Origin: a virus
Length of the DNA: 48,776 bases
IMG/VR virus record: IMGVR_UViG_3300044940_000313
Location: 1-48,776 of that record
Strand: one strand, 5' to 3'
The notes under the pieces are model-generated. The model saw only the letters and a program-made list of their open reading frames with translations, had not been told where the DNA came from and made no database searches. Positions 38,664-45,093 of the stretch are shown here, one piece after another. The translations under genes were made by a program, and so were the position numbers. The first letter of the stretch is position 1; every line of letters begins with the position of its first letter.

Positions 38664-39175
38664 ATTTTAAAACCCAACTTTTCTGGAATGTTGGCCACAG
38701 CAATCTCCGTAAATTCTAGCTTTTCTGATGGTACCTTGTGGGCTTCAATGTGCCAATACAAAGCGTCGTCTACGGGTATAATGCCGCCTTTATCGGCTCG
38801 CCCCGTGCCGTGCAGCATATCTAAAAGTGTTTTTATTCTATTATCAATATCCATCGTCAGGCTTGCTTTGTTTTTTTTTGTTACAAACCTAGGGCTATGA
38901 AAGCATATACAAATTGCAAGCGGCGATTTTTCAATAGTCGGTAAGCAGTCCCTGGCGAGCGATCGGCGGTTAGTGTCTATATAGTTTTGATACTCCTTTG
39001 ATCTTATTTTTGATCCGTAGCGACCACGACGTGGAATCCATGCGTGGTTCGCCGAAGGCGGTAGGCCGCTAATGACAGTTATCAAAACAATGCCAGACCT
39101 ATAATGCTCAATAAATTTTAATGCATGAGCACTAGGCTCCCACAAGTCCACGAATGATTTCTTCTCTTTTGTCAT
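38660..39175 (-). CDS. RusA-like Holliday junction resolvase
   Basis: 171 aa. The RusA pattern is present: LPPSANHAW (39-47) at the N-terminus, TMDIDNRIKTLLDMLHGTG with two of the metal-binding aspartates, and IIPVDDALYWHIEAHKV with the third. It resolves branched DNA after replication or recombination, probably with Bet. It starts inside the glycosyltransferase gene (44-nt overlap) without a clear ribosome site, so the true start may be slightly downstream. Confidence 0.85.
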   Translation of the reverse strand: MTKEKKSFVDLWEPSAHALKFIEHYRSGIVLITVISGLPPSANHAWIPRRGRYGSKIRSKEYQNYIDTNRRSLARDCLPTIEKSPLAICICFHSPRFVTKKNKASLTMDIDNRIKTLLDMLHGTGRADKGGIIPVDDALYWHIEAHKVPSEKLEFTEIAVANIPEKLGFKI

Positions 39176-40160
39176 TTGCGTCTGACACGATTCGGTAACA
39201 CTTCCTAGATTCCCTGGCTTCTCTAACCTTCGCGTTTACCTGCTCATCGCTCATTTCTGCGACTTTCATTATTTTTTCATAAAATGAGCCCTGTTTATAT
39301 TCGTAATTCAATGTCGCTGGGTTTGACCACTCCGTCATGTTTGGCCCAATGCAAAGAGAGCCAGCCCAAAGCCCTTCAAGGTAGGCAATGTCAGACTTGC
39401 AGTTATTAAAGTAATTGCTTGCTAGTGGAACTAGCATACACTTTGGCTGCAATTGCTTAAGCGTGTAGAAGTAATCCAAAATGTCTATTGCGCCAAATAT
39501 TTCCATGTTTTTAGTAGCTTGTTTTTTAAGCCGCCACGGCACATCGCCTTGAAAATAAAAAGTGTGGTCACTTAAATCACTTGCAGCGTTTAGAATGTCC
39601 TGAATCCACAGCTCAACATCTTCATTATGAGTTGCCGAACCGCGCCAGCAGAATAGTTTGTTTCTTTTTTTCGGCAGCAAAGGCATCTCAGGTATAATGT
39701 GTGTTGGCAGTGCGTTTCTTATAACTTCACACCTTTTCGCAAGTGGACCGGTCGGAGCATCTTGCAGCGCAGCACGCAGTGGCTCTGTGCTAACGGTTAC
39801 AACGTCTGACTTTGCTATTATTGTTGCAATTATTTTTCTAGTCTTATCATTTGAGTATGTTGCGTGGGCTGGGTTTGATTCCGGCACGCTGAATAGGTCA
39901 TCATCGTAGTCAACCCAGACGGGCTTGTTTTGTCTCTTAGCTAGTTCTAGCATTGTCAGATGATCTTCCTTGTACGGCCTTTGCATGAAAAGAATATCGC
40001 AGCTTGCGGCAACCACTGGCCAAGAGACCGAGCTTGGCTCCATTACTTCAATGTTCAGATTATCGCGCCTTGTCAGCTCCGAAAGAGGCCCAATGCTTCT
40101 GTAGAAACTTGTGGCATCGTTTCGGTTCGGTATAATTGATAAAATTCTTATTTTTTTCAT
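39132..40160 (-). CDS. GT4-like glycosyltransferase
   Basis: 342 aa, a GT-B fold. It starts KIRILSIIPNRNDATSFYRSI; the acceptor domain follows, then VIRNALP (about 145-151) and LFCWRGSATHNEDVEL. The C-terminal donor domain has LVPLASNYFNNCKSDIAYLEGLWAGSLCIGPNM, the E-x7-like sugar-nucleotide signature of GT4. It could transfer the amino-dideoxy sugar predicted from RmlB/RmlC and the aminotransferase. Acceptor unknown. Overlaps RusA. Confidence 0.72.
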   Translation of the reverse strand: MKKIRILSIIPNRNDATSFYRSIGPLSELTRRDNLNIEVMEPSSVSWPVVAASCDILFMQRPYKEDHLTMLELAKRQNKPVWVDYDDDLFSVPESNPAHATYSNDKTRKIIATIIAKSDVVTVSTEPLRAALQDAPTGPLAKRCEVIRNALPTHIIPEMPLLPKKRNKLFCWRGSATHNEDVELWIQDILNAASDLSDHTFYFQGDVPWRLKKQATKNMEIFGAIDILDYFYTLKQLQPKCMLVPLASNYFNNCKSDIAYLEGLWAGSLCIGPNMTEWSNPATLNYEYKQGSFYEKIMKVAEMSDEQVNAKVREARESRKCYRIVSDANDKREEIIRGLVGA

Positions 40161-40498: not shown

Positions 40499-41275
40499 TT
40501 ATTTTTTTGACCTTATTCTCTCGATTTCTTTATTCATTACTTGGCAAACCCTTGGACCACTTACCCCAAACACTTCGCCAATTTCTTCATTCGTCAGCCC
40601 ATACTTGAATGAAAGATATATGTATGCACGCGCTAGTTTATTCTTAAACTTCAAAACCGAAAGATCAGCGTTTACAAATGATGGGGTCTGATTTTCGCTT
40701 ATGCTCAACTCCTCTAGCCCCGTTCCAGATATGGGATCACTTGCTAGATTGTGTGACAGTTTATTCTTTTGATACTCAGTATCATCACATGCCCTGCCGT
40801 TTTTTTTTCTCATGTAATCTACCCAGAGCTGTGCAACAAATGAATTTCTTCTGCCACGCAGATATTCTAAGCATACCCACTGCGCAAAGTCTTCGGCGTC
40901 ATTGTAGTAGCCTTTTTTGTTGCAATACCAGATTGCTACTCGGCGCATGTCCTCAATTGTTTTATCGTTTATTTCTTTTTTCTGCTCGGCTAGTTTTTTC
41001 TTAAACCTGCGGGATACGTTTTTAATAACGTGAATACTTACGCCTAGCTTTTCTGCCGCACCACGAACCCCTAACTCTTTGGCAAGGCTAACTATGCGCT
41101 CCATCTCTCGAAACGATCTGCCTTCCATCGGGTTTACACATTTAATTCCATGCTTTTTACAATGGTAGCGCACGGCATCTACAGTTATGCATAACTCTTT
41201 AGCAATTTCTTTCTTGTTTTTTGTGCTAGCTAGCTTTTTTATTTTTTCAATCAAAGGCTTTAATCCATGCTTCAT
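40499..41275 (-). CDS. Sigma-factor-like regulator
   Basis: 258 aa with helix-turn-helix units at about 20-44 (KEIAKELCITVDAVRYHCKK) and 66-90 (GAAEKLGVSIHVIKNVS). There is a region-2-like stretch AEDFAQWVCLEYLRG (127-141) and a C-terminal region-4-like HTH (YIYLSFKYGLTNEEIGEVFG, 215-235). This order resembles phage-encoded sigma-70-type factors. It could switch transcription to late promoters. The stop of the Acb2-like gene abuts its ATG (TAA ATG). A 24-bp piece of its 5' part is repeated upstream of that gene. Confidence 0.6.
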   Translation of the reverse strand: MKHGLKPLIEKIKKLASTKNKKEIAKELCITVDAVRYHCKKHGIKCVNPMEGRSFREMERIVSLAKELGVRGAAEKLGVSIHVIKNVSRRFKKKLAEQKKEINDKTIEDMRRVAIWYCNKKGYYNDAEDFAQWVCLEYLRGRRNSFVAQLWVDYMRKKNGRACDDTEYQKNKLSHNLASDPISGTGLEELSISENQTPSFVNADLSVLKFKNKLARAYIYLSFKYGLTNEEIGEVFGVSGPRVCQVMNKEIERIRSKK

Positions 41276-41767
41276 TTAAGCCAGACTCGTTCCTTCTACA
41301 CCTCTAGCCTCTCGGTCAGATTTTCTGTCCTTCAATGCTTGCAGTGCGGATTGAAGGTGTGACAAAGCCAGCTCATTTTCTTTGCATTGGTGCTGCATGT
41401 TGAGCGAATTAAGCAGTGCGTACGCCATTGATATTACAGTGTCAATCTGACAGCCGTTTACGCCAACCTCTTTAATTGGCCCATTTTGAAGAGTGAAAGA
41501 CAATGAATTTTTATCTAGTCTTACATATACAAACTTGTTTGGCCTGATTTCTTTTTCAAACCACTCCCAGTCCATCTGACCACTTTCAGTGAACCTCTCC
41601 GGAAACTGCTCTCGAAGTTTGTCCATAATAACGACATCAAAGCCATCAACTGAGCCTATATTCTCAACATGCTTTAACATTTTATTGACTCCTTTTAATC
41701 AGTAGAGCGATTTTCCTTGGTACAAAAACGAATAGAAGTGTAACTAGCTTTTTTATTTTTTCAATCA
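41230..41767. repeat. 24-bp direct repeat pair
   Basis: The same 24 bp (T-rich, starting CTAGC and ending CAATCA) occurs at 41230-41253, near the start of the sigma-like gene, and at 41744-41767, upstream of the Acb2-like gene. On the coding strand both can encode IEKIKKL. The pair brackets the Acb2-like gene and may reflect a local duplication or the boundary of an inserted segment. Confidence 0.6.
41276..41680 (-). CDS. Protein with Acb2/Tad1-hairpin-like C-terminus
   Basis: 134 aa with AAGGAG nine nt before the ATG. The N-terminal 85 residues are alpha/beta and unassigned (KEIRPNKFVYVRLDKNSLSF). The C-terminal hairpin CKENELALSHLQSALQALKD then DREARGVEGTS (99-132) resembles the helical hairpin of phage Acb2/Tad1-type proteins. 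These bind cyclic nucleotides and so block CBASS or Thoeris defence. Many uncharacterised phage proteins share this tail, so the anti-defence role is a hypothesis. It precedes the sigma-like gene. Confidence 0.55.
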   Translation of the reverse strand: MLKHVENIGSVDGFDVVIMDKLREQFPERFTESGQMDWEWFEKEIRPNKFVYVRLDKNSLSFTLQNGPIKEVGVNGCQIDTVISMAYALLNSLNMQHQCKENELALSHLQSALQALKDRKSDREARGVEGTSLA

Positions 41768-41802: not shown

Positions 41803-43527
41803 ATGCACCCCAGACTTATCAATCAATTATTTGAAAACCCAGAATTTTTAATTGATGAACAATCTCTAGGTTACTTGGTGAGAGATATCATCAACATGAA
41901 TTGGTGGAACACAGCAGGCTACCTGCTTGGTTATAAGAAAAACAAAAGAGTCAGTGGAAAGTTTACAGAAACACAAAAACGAATAGCTGTTCAGCTAAAG
42001 GAATATTATCGCTACAGAACAATAGCAACAAAAGATCATGATAAGTTTGTTAATGAAATAAGAGGCTACATAAGCGGGAACATCTCTTCGCTTAATCAGC
42101 TAGGCGCATACTCGATGCGCGCTAGGGCAAACCCAAGCCAATTCTTTCATACCCCTGAAGGCGAGATGACTTGGGTTGATTGCACATCGAGAGCGACGTA
42201 TGCGGCAAAGTACGTTTTTCAAAACGGCTATATTGATTTTGATGGAGTGTGTCGACTTATTGGCTGCCGTGATGTCGTAAACGCAATTGATTCAGGTAAC
42301 TGCTTTGATCTTGGAATCAAAGATTATTTTGTTGAGGGAGATAATTCAGTCAAAAAAGAGATTTTCTCTCAAAAAAATGATCAACTGAGCGTCAAAGAGT
42401 GGGTTGATAAATTAAACATAAAACCAATAAACGAAAGACTTTGGCTTCTCGACGCAATAGGTCACGTCAGAACAGATCCGTTTAAAAAATATGAAGCGAA
42501 ACTCGTTTCGGCAGGTCTCGCAAAGGGAGTAAATGAATGTCTTTATGGATTTAAAACTTCTGCCAGTTTTGACAGTTCCGACATTTCAACTCGTGTAAGC
42601 AGCGCAAGTCATGCAAGCCGATCAAGCAATGCAAGCCGCGAAAGCCATGCAAGCCGCGAAAGCCGATCAAGCCATGCGAGCAATGTAAGCAGTGCAAGCA
42701 ATGCAAGCCGCGCAAGTGACGCAAGCCGCGCAAGCAGCGTGAGCGATGCGACGCATGAAAGCAGTGCAAGCCGCGCAAGCAATGCAAGCCGCGCAAGCAG
42801 TGCAAGTGGCGCAAGCGAAGCAAGCAGTGCAACTGATGCAGGCTGTACAACATTTAATGGGTTTAGCTGGGCAATGTGTGATGCAGCTATTACAAAGCCC
42901 GAAGGGCTTGAGTATCCTAAAGTATTCAGAAAAAACATTTTCGCGATAGCTGGCAATTGGAAGATAGACAAATCAGTTACATCACTTTGCAAAATAGCTT
43001 GGTTTGATCCTTTTTCGGGACACGGCACTACACCACTTTATTGTAAGCGTTATGGCATTAAGTATCTTGGCTTCGACACGAACAAGCGAGCGTTTGATGA
43101 ATATTTAAATATAATAAATGATGAACTGATCAATGCTCCTGGACCATCAGTGAAAGTTGTCAACACTGACTCAACTATCTTCTATGAAGATTTAGTAAAT
43201 TCATTTGATCTATGCTACACATCTCCGCCATATTTTGATTTCGAAGAGTACGGCGGGAATACTGCTCACTTCGCTGGTTGCGAAACATACATGGACTTCC
43301 ACAACAAAATAACAATCCCCGTTTTCACTAACGTCTACAAATATCTCGTGGACGGGGGAACACTTGCATTACAGCTTGAAAAGAACAAAGCAGCAGTTGA
43401 GCTGTGGAAGAGTGTCATTCAAAAAATAGGCTTCAAGCTAGTTGATGAAAAAATCACTGGACAAGAAAAGAATAAATACTCAACACTAAGCAAGCGCGAT
43501 CAAAGCCTAGTTCTTTTCACAAAATGA
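41803..43527 (+). CDS. DNA methyltransferase (SPPY type) with Ala-Ser-x repeat linker
   Basis: 574 aa, on the plus strand unlike nearly all others. The N-terminal 255 residues are unrecognised and could hold the target-recognition domain. A low-complexity Ala-Ser-x tripeptide repeat occupies about 267-346. The catalytic domain follows: FDPFSGHGTT (401-410, SAM-binding motif I) and TSPPYFDF (473-480, motif IV). TSPPY is typical of N4-cytosine and some N6-adenine methylases. Recognition specificity is not readable. Two paralogous Imm5-like genes lie just downstream. It may be a self-protection methylase against host restriction. Confidence 0.75.
   Translation: MHPRLINQLFENPEFLIDEQSLGYLVRDIINMNWWNTAGYLLGYKKNKRVSGKFTETQKRIAVQLKEYYRYRTIATKDHDKFVNEIRGYISGNISSLNQLGAYSMRARANPSQFFHTPEGEMTWVDCTSRATYAAKYVFQNGYIDFDGVCRLIGCRDVVNAIDSGNCFDLGIKDYFVEGDNSVKKEIFSQKNDQLSVKEWVDKLNIKPINERLWLLDAIGHVRTDPFKKYEAKLVSAGLAKGVNECLYGFKTSASFDSSDISTRVSSASHASRSSNASRESHASRESRSSHASNVSSASNASRASDASRASSVSDATHESSASRASNASRASSASGASEASSATDAGCTTFNGFSWAMCDAAITKPEGLEYPKVFRKNIFAIAGNWKIDKSVTSLCKIAWFDPFSGHGTTPLYCKRYGIKYLGFDTNKRAFDEYLNIINDELINAPGPSVKVVNTDSTIFYEDLVNSFDLCYTSPPYFDFEEYGGNTAHFAGCETYMDFHNKITIPVFTNVYKYLVDGGTLALQLEKNKAAVELWKSVIQKIGFKLVDEKITGQEKNKYSTLSKRDQSLVLFTK
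42601..42840 (+). repeat. 9-bp tandem repeat encoding Ala-Ser-x
   Basis: About 27 imperfect 9-bp units of the form GCA AGC NNN, in frame inside the methyltransferase gene. The third codon is mostly AAT, CGC, AGT or CAT, giving Asn, Arg, Ser or His. The array separates the N-terminal region from the catalytic domain and could expand or contract by slippage. It is coding, with no spacers, so it is not a CRISPR array. Confidence 0.85.
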
Positions 43528-44115
43528 ATTCGTGTTATTTTTTGAATCTCTTTCAAGAATTTTTACAGCTTTTCTGATTAAACGAAGCTCAAGTTTGTCT
43601 CGATTATAAGATGCTCTAAGTGCATCATCAATTGCATAGTATGCGTTATTTTCTGATTTGTTAATCGGCTCTTCAGCCACTGCCGCAGCCCAAGCTGCTG
43701 AATTTCCAGCAGTGGCAGCATCTTTAAGTTCATGCGAATTAGTATACATGCATATATTATCTGCTTGTAAATGAGTATAGTACGATATTCCTCTGACGAA
43801 ATCATAATAATTTATAACTTTACCAGTTTCCGCAAAATGATTAGCAACATTTATTGCAATACGCGCTATTTGATTTTTCTTCGCTTTTTTTTCAAAGATG
43901 CTTAACACTGATTTCGCAGCGTAAGCAGCAATTTCTGCGCGCTGACGATGATTCATCATTTTTATGTACATTAAACGAGCTTCAACTGAATCATCTTCGT
44001 TTAATGTTGTCAGCGTTTTTAACAAATCTTCGCTTCCGTATTTTTCATACCAATCAAGAATATCTTTGCTTAAATTAAATGATTGCAGCATTTCTTTATT
44101 AATTTTAATCGACAT
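43507..44115 (-). CDS. Imm5-like protein, copy 1
   Basis: 202 aa with GGAG six nt before the ATG. The first 100 residues (MSIKINKEMLQSF, WYEKYGSEDLLKTLTTLNE, RQRAEIAAYAAKSVLSIFEKK) parallel the protein at 44423-45082, and both end in KILERD-type sequence. The helical, Ala-rich build with A/x-LP-I-E and 'RKAIEAA'-like segments resembles the putative immunity (Imm5-like) family. Its 3' end overlaps the methyltransferase 3' end by 21 nt (convergent genes). Function unknown; immunity to a toxin or inhibition of a host system is conceivable. Confidence 0.6.
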   Translation of the reverse strand: MSIKINKEMLQSFNLSKDILDWYEKYGSEDLLKTLTTLNEDDSVEARLMYIKMMNHRQRAEIAAYAAKSVLSIFEKKAKKNQIARIAINVANHFAETGKVINYYDFVRGISYYTHLQADNICMYTNSHELKDAATAGNSAAWAAAVAEEPINKSENNAYYAIDDALRASYNRDKLELRLIRKAVKILERDSKNNTNSFCEKN

Positions 44116-44422: not shown

Positions 44423-45082
44423 TCATGCATTATCTCTTTCGAGTATTCGCACTGCTTCATTGATTATATTTAACTCAGTTTGTTTTTGGTTTTCTGAAGC
44501 ATCAGCGGCACTAGCAGCACTAGCAGCAGCAGAAGCGACAGTGGCAGCAGCAGCGTAAGCAGCATCGGCACTAGTAGCGCAAGCAGAAGCAGCAGCATCA
44601 GCGGCGGCAGCGGCAGCGTAGGCAGCAGCAGAAGCGACAGTGGCAGCAGCAGCGTAAGCAGCATCGGCACTAGTAGCGCAATCAGCATCGTAAGCAGCAG
44701 CGGCACTAGCATCAGCGGCGTAAGAAGCGGCAGCGGCAACGTAAACAGCAGCAGCATCAGCAACAGCGTAAGCATCAGCAGTACCAGTTTTTAAATAGCA
44801 CTTAGCTGCTTCAATTGCTTTTCTAACTCTTTTATCGTTTGGGTACATTATTTCATAAATTGGTAGCACTAGCTCTGCTGAGTAAATGGCAATTTCTACA
44901 CATTGCTTTTTATTCATCATACGAGTAAATAGCCAGCGCGCCCATGTTTGGTTGTATTCATTTAAATCTATCAATGTTTTTAATAGATCCTCACTGCCAT
45001 GCTCGTCGTACCAAGACAAGCCCCTTTCGCACGGCTTTTGTGGAAGCGACATTAGTATTTCTTTGTTTATTTTAATTGGCAT
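44423..45082 (-). CDS. Imm5-like protein with poly-Ala region, copy 2
   Basis: 219 aa from the ATG at 45082, six nt after AAGAAG; the ATG at 45088 has no room for a site. The N-terminal 100 residues (MPIKINKEIL, WYDEHGSEDLLKTLIDLNE, CVEIAIYSAELVLPIYE, RKAIEAAKCYLKTG) match the Imm5-like pattern and copy 1. Residues of about 105-195 are an extreme Ala/Ser/Asp/Tyr region with a 33-residue tandem repeat, then NEAVRILERDNA. The Ala tract could be one long helix or a tract that has expanded by slippage. Confidence 0.6.
   Translation of the reverse strand: MPIKINKEILMSLPQKPCERGLSWYDEHGSEDLLKTLIDLNEYNQTWARWLFTRMMNKKQCVEIAIYSAELVLPIYEIMYPNDKRVRKAIEAAKCYLKTGTADAYAVADAAAVYVAAAASYAADASAAAAYDADCATSADAAYAAAATVASAAAYAAAAAADAAASACATSADAAYAAAATVASAAASAASAADASENQKQTELNIINEAVRILERDNA
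44523..44681 (-). repeat. 60-bp direct repeat with 99-bp period
   Basis: 44523-44582 and 44622-44681 are identical over 60 bp, offset by 99 bp (33 codons), inside the poly-Ala part of the Imm5-like copy 2. The period is a multiple of three, so the reading frame is kept. Confidence 0.85.
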
Positions 45083-45093
45083 AATCATCTTCT

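Follow-up and report, generated by a model that had tools for sequence, protein, structure and literature searches.

Tad1 is a hexamer comprised of three dimers (review PMC12043709). Its six inter-protomer pockets take gcADPR or cyclic dinucleotides, cyclic trinucleotides are held at two trimer interfaces, and ligand capture keeps the Thoeris and CBASS effectors off (PMC12043709). For phiKZ, injection of its Tad1 into the host has been reported (PMC13282480). A SBSphiJ7 protein (UPI13470.1) is labelled Tad1 in its own record.

The window analysed here (IMGVR_UViG_3300044940_000313, the whole stretch) is a linear virus contig 48,776 bases long. It encodes a portal, terminase, baseplate hub, RecT, Mu Gam, replication initiator and RusA. 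No close isolated phage was found in the isolate collection by megablast of the 28-48.8 kb part. The gene of interest had been placed correctly by an earlier sequence-only reading; it runs on the minus strand from an ATG at 41680 to a TAA at 41278-41276 and its product ends in KSDREARGVEGTSLA. Relatives of the product occur on many virus contigs, at about 70 environmental virus loci, with identities of 37 to 65%. The ORF is a real coding gene, as evidenced by these relatives and by the Shine-Dalgarno sequence upstream. The features of the locus are listed in Table 1.

Table 1. Features of the Tad1-like gene and its surroundings (window positions).
Feature	Position	Strand	Basis or remark
Tad1-like gene (tad1), 134 aa	41276..41680	minus	ORF, relatives, PDB Tad1 matches
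Shine-Dalgarno AAAAGGAG, 8 nt 5' of tad1 ATG	41689..41696	minus	Read from sequence
N-terminal module, residues 1-57	41510..41680	minus	Alignment and AF2
Tad1/Acb2-hairpin core, residues 58-134	41279..41509	minus	Tad1 sequence and structure matches
Gly-rich loop QNGPIKEVGVNGCQID, residues 65-80, last strand to helix 1	41441..41488	minus	Conservation
Hairpin helix 1, residues 79-96	41393..41446	minus	AF2 model
Hairpin helix 2, residues 100-126, invariant N102, R119, R123	41303..41383	minus	AF2 and conservation
C-terminal tail GVEGTSLA, residues 127-134	41279..41302	minus	ORF and conservation
Downstream gene, 258 aa, sigma-70 region 4/HTH-like	40499..41275	minus	ORF and domain match
27-nt direct repeat, copy 1	41227..41253		5' end of sigma-like gene; encodes IEKIKKLA at protein start
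27-nt direct repeat, copy 2 (26/27)	41741..41767		Upstream of tad1

In a phmmer search of the PDB the protein matched CmTad1 (4e-11) and phiKZ gp184 (8y6v; 7e-6), both from about residue 62. A profile of its relatives matched CmTad1 (1.2e-25), gp184 (6e-14) and CbTad1 (about 1e-10). BLASTP against the SBSphiJ7 Tad1 gave an E value of 2e-15 with 39% identity over 72 aa of the core, and hhalign with a profile of 28 Tad1s gave a probability of 99.9% (7e-33). The Pfam family PF24729 (Acb2_Tad1_hairpin) was matched by 14 of 20 alignment members. The query alone did not reach PF24729 in Pfam, where the only hit was HP1451_C at 0.006, below the cutoff; this miss reflects the detection limit rather than a biological trait and is superseded by the direct Tad1 matches. 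The protein carries the REN...RxxxR...GVEGT hairpin signature. By its sequence it belongs to the Acb2/Tad1 hairpin superfamily, with clear Tad1 homology over residues 61-134 or so. This region of about 74 residues comprises the last beta strand, the Gly-rich loop, both helices and the tail. The sequence-only reading had likened the last 35 residues to the hairpin; the likeness is real and the extent is about twice that given. Its remark that the DREARGVEGT tail recurs among phage proteins agrees with RxxxREARGVEGT being a hallmark of the Acb2/Tad1 hairpin.

The AlphaFold2 model of the full protein (61 sequences) had a pLDDT of 94.1. The best 19 Foldseek matches in the PDB were all Tad1. With VIA-align, residues 63-134 (72 residues) superposed on CbTad1 at 1.5 Å (Z 9.6) and on CmTad1 at 1.0 Å (Z 9.5). 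The comparison of a predicted structure with Tad1, proposed beforehand as a check, thus matched the hairpin, and the proposed assignment to a sponge family is supported by the CmTad1 E values, the hhalign result and the model alike. The model has the Tad1 core fold of a strand, a Gly-rich loop and two long helices. The core, residues 61-134 approximately, shares common descent and a common fold with Tad1. A full-length structural match (TM 0.94, 41% identity) was found to A0A516MPI8, a viral protein without a name, and the complete architecture is therefore already present in a public viral protein.

The query belongs, with the short forms, to a group whose Gly-rich loop contains NGCQ. A branch of length 0.93 with support of 100/99 sets this group off from classical Tad1, and we know of no tested member. 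Residues E71, G73, N75, G76, C99, E101, N102, R119, R123, R126 and G130 are near-invariant in this group and in Tad1. The Gly-rich loop QNGPIKEVGVNGCQID is a putative ligand loop by analogy with Tad1. We take F82 and N92 of CbTad1 to be contacts to gcADPR, and the Arg pair R109/R113 to be part of the ligand sites. The helix 2 Asn and the Arg pair have their equivalents in N102, R119 and R123, which are 100% conserved in the query-group alignment, as are their equivalents in the Tad1 alignment. The Phe before helix 2 is replaced by Leu93; Leu is found here in 92% of the query group, compared to Phe in 96% of Tad1s. For this reason the protein was classed as Tad1-like within the hairpin superfamily and not as a proven gcADPR sponge. 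The branch split, the different N-terminal part and the Leu also mean that the ligand range may be shifted from that of Tad1. Given the changed N-terminal part and the Leu, gcADPR binding is less certain than binding of cyclic oligonucleotides, and the protein would more likely keep cyclic trinucleotides than gcADPR.

The Tad1 homology, the fold match and the invariant Asn102, Arg119 and Arg123 all support a sponge that would act on the Tad1 principle. We put the probability of this reading, drawn from sequence and model, at roughly 0.7. Counted against it are the lack of a PF24729 match for the query, the long branch to classical Tad1 and the Leu in place of Phe. Its C-terminal two-helix hairpins would probably bring the protein together as an oligomer (in Tad1 a hexamer), which would sequester host nucleotide alarm signals without cutting them. 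The signals would be CBASS cyclic oligonucleotides, Thoeris cyclic ADP-ribose isomers or both. With the signals mopped up the death effectors would stay off. This would widen the Tad1 sponges by a large environmental branch, apparently still untested, that carries an N-terminal module of its own and differs in a pocket residue.

The N-terminal module was modelled as a helix (2-7), strand (14-18), helix (19-25), helix (38-45) and strand (51-54). Its conserved pattern is MD.LR..P..F..SG.MDY.WFE..IRP..F.YVR.D, with ten invariant columns across 43 aligned sequences in residues 1-55 approximately. Modelled alone, the N-terminal part had a pLDDT of 87.6. No credible match to it was found in the PDB by sequence or by Foldseek (best Foldseek E 4.6, chance rows), no significant match among 50,697 isolated phage records (best E 7) and no alignment to Tad1 profiles. 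Fragments of HP1451_C (18 residues, 0.001, below cut-off) and L41e (0.016) were considered as known domains and rejected. The N-terminal half of the model has strands at 14-18, 51-54 and 59-62 and two extra helices, compared to the antiparallel beta-sheet b1-b4 of Tad1, and residues 1-62 were left unaligned to Tad1 in clean superpositions. The module, of about 50 to 55 residues, is a small alpha/beta module of a sort unseen in the sponges studied so far. It probably occupies the place of the N-terminal beta part of Tad1 and helps to shape the pocket or the dimer. The sequence-only reading had described an extra 85-residue N-terminal domain foreign to known sponges. This holds for residues 1-55 or so, which have no PDB counterpart, but residues 61-85 are Tad1 core; "extra" is also too strong, as an N-terminal beta part is present in Tad1 itself and a long N-terminal extension already occurs in phiKZ gp184.

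The module is present in many recovered virus loci. Among the loci inspected none had it on a protein without a hairpin; behind it stood the Tad1 hairpin, or a decayed one in L106 and L237. The L106 protein (L106:3001-3366, same as L107 and L237) has the module and a hairpin without the REN, RxxxR and GVEGT residues, making it a candidate decayed or re-purposed sponge. Loci L073-L084 and L262 form a sub-branch that has the same module with the Gly-rich loop KPASEGGDLNRCQ as against GPIKEVGVNGCQ, keeping REN and RxxxR, and the rewritten loop is a candidate change of ligand. In other family members the hairpin is the same but the N-terminus is shorter or of another kind. A hairpin-only tree took 9 changes for the N-terminal type of the query, 3 of them forced by starred branches, and suggests that N-terminal types were exchanged several times around the hairpin, with many forks left open by the short alignment. 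It is doubtful, though conceivable, that the module is an exchangeable specificity part, with phages placing different small N-terminal modules on one hairpin scaffold so as to alter which immune nucleotide is caught, and that this one captures a signal outside the known Tad1 range. If the module does set ligand choice the group would be a natural panel for selection between CBASS and Thoeris signals, and perhaps a route to signals not yet known.

A sponge blind to the known signals was also considered, in which the module and the altered pocket bind some other nucleotide, such as a Thoeris or CRISPR signal that known Tad1s do not bind. The conservation of the module (unlike Tad1), the Leu ahead of helix 2 and the apparent swapping of N-terminal types around one hairpin speak for it. 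The presumed ligand loop and the helix 2 residues are conserved, however, and the model is a monomer from which pocket geometry is not readable. We consider this explanation improbable.

The stop codon of tad1 directly abuts the start of the sigma-like gene (TAA, ATG). Across about 70 loci no conserved operon partner or neighbour family was found; the commonest neighbour family, the terminase large subunit, accounted for 4 of 77 neighbours. The lack of a conserved neighbour is consistent with a mobile accessory gene that stands by itself, and counter-defence genes are expected to be of this kind. The 27-nt direct repeat flanking tad1 was matched by none in 100 shuffles, and the pair may have been left behind by an insertion. 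Relatives of the sigma-like neighbour were sought for an empty-site comparison and none were found. A second, weaker repeat (80%) links 41722-41746, in the region upstream of tad1, with 41973-41997, in the methyltransferase gene; the stretch between the genes resembles a patchwork drawn from its two flanks.

Other genes of the window were noted. A DNA methyltransferase gene (N6_N4_Mtase) lies at 41803-43527 and contains a Ser/Ala/Arg-rich array at 42597-42832 with 9, 18 and 27-nt periods. A TET/JBP-type oxygenase (PF12851, 4.4e-17) is encoded at 777-1616, labelled queuine tRNA-ribosyltransferase in PHROGs, and together with a gene at 39132-40160 that is glycosyltransferase-like it gives a hint of hypermodified DNA bases. 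The proteins of 43507-44115 and 44423-45088 both match phrog_38757, a family of unassigned role, and are possible duplicates.

A structural role was weighed against the sponge, the hairpin then being a generic phage oligomerisation module that acts in the particle. The hairpin domain occurs in a 201phi2-1 protein similar to phiKZ gp184 that was detected by mass spectrometry, gp184 is part of the solved structure 8y6v, and the annotation of some homologues reads "structural protein". PMC13282480, however, describes the phiKZ Tad1 both as a sponge and as an injected protein, so that a protein found in particles can still be a sponge. The relatives have varied neighbours (terminase, methyltransferase, ParB, exonuclease) and lack a constant structural setting, and the gene here sits between replication/recombination genes and RusA. 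This role is quite improbable. An Acb2 homologue is extremely improbable, since the Pfam family unites Acb2 and Tad1 hairpins but the credible PDB sequence matches and strong Foldseek matches were all Tad1 or gp184, no Acb2 chain appeared in PDB sequence or profile searches up to E 10, and the core contains the Tad1 strand and Gly-rich loop; Acb2 was rejected as nearest kin and the protein is nearer to Tad1.

Residues 61-134 are like those of CmTad1 and CbTad1 (PDB 8kbb-8kbd, 8kbe/8kbf, 7uav/7uaw, 8smd) at 1.0-1.5 Å, sharing the last strand, Gly-rich loop, two-helix hairpin, REN motif, RxxxR and G-T tail. The N-terminal 55 residues or so, the Leu for Phe before helix 2 and the separate branch set it apart from both. 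The SBSphiJ7 Tad1 is alike in the core but its N-terminus, ELKHELLPTRHTQVFHEDKDKMEFNAPHHFVVV, is unmatched by that of the query. Acb2 belongs to the same Pfam hairpin family, but no Acb2 chain was matched by sequence. In Burkholderia phage FLC9 gp131 (L196:718-1731), a natural fusion, the Tad1-like hairpin at the C-terminus is preceded by a prolyl isomerase of the cyclophilin type (PF00160, 2.5e-44). In phiKZ gp184 and 201phi2-1 gp280, Tad1s with an N-terminal extension, the C-terminal hairpin matches that of the query, whereas the extension of about 155 residues ahead of the gp184 hairpin is unrelated to the module described here. N-terminal additions to the hairpin are thus not new in principle, as gp184 and the cyclophilin of FLC9 gp131 show.
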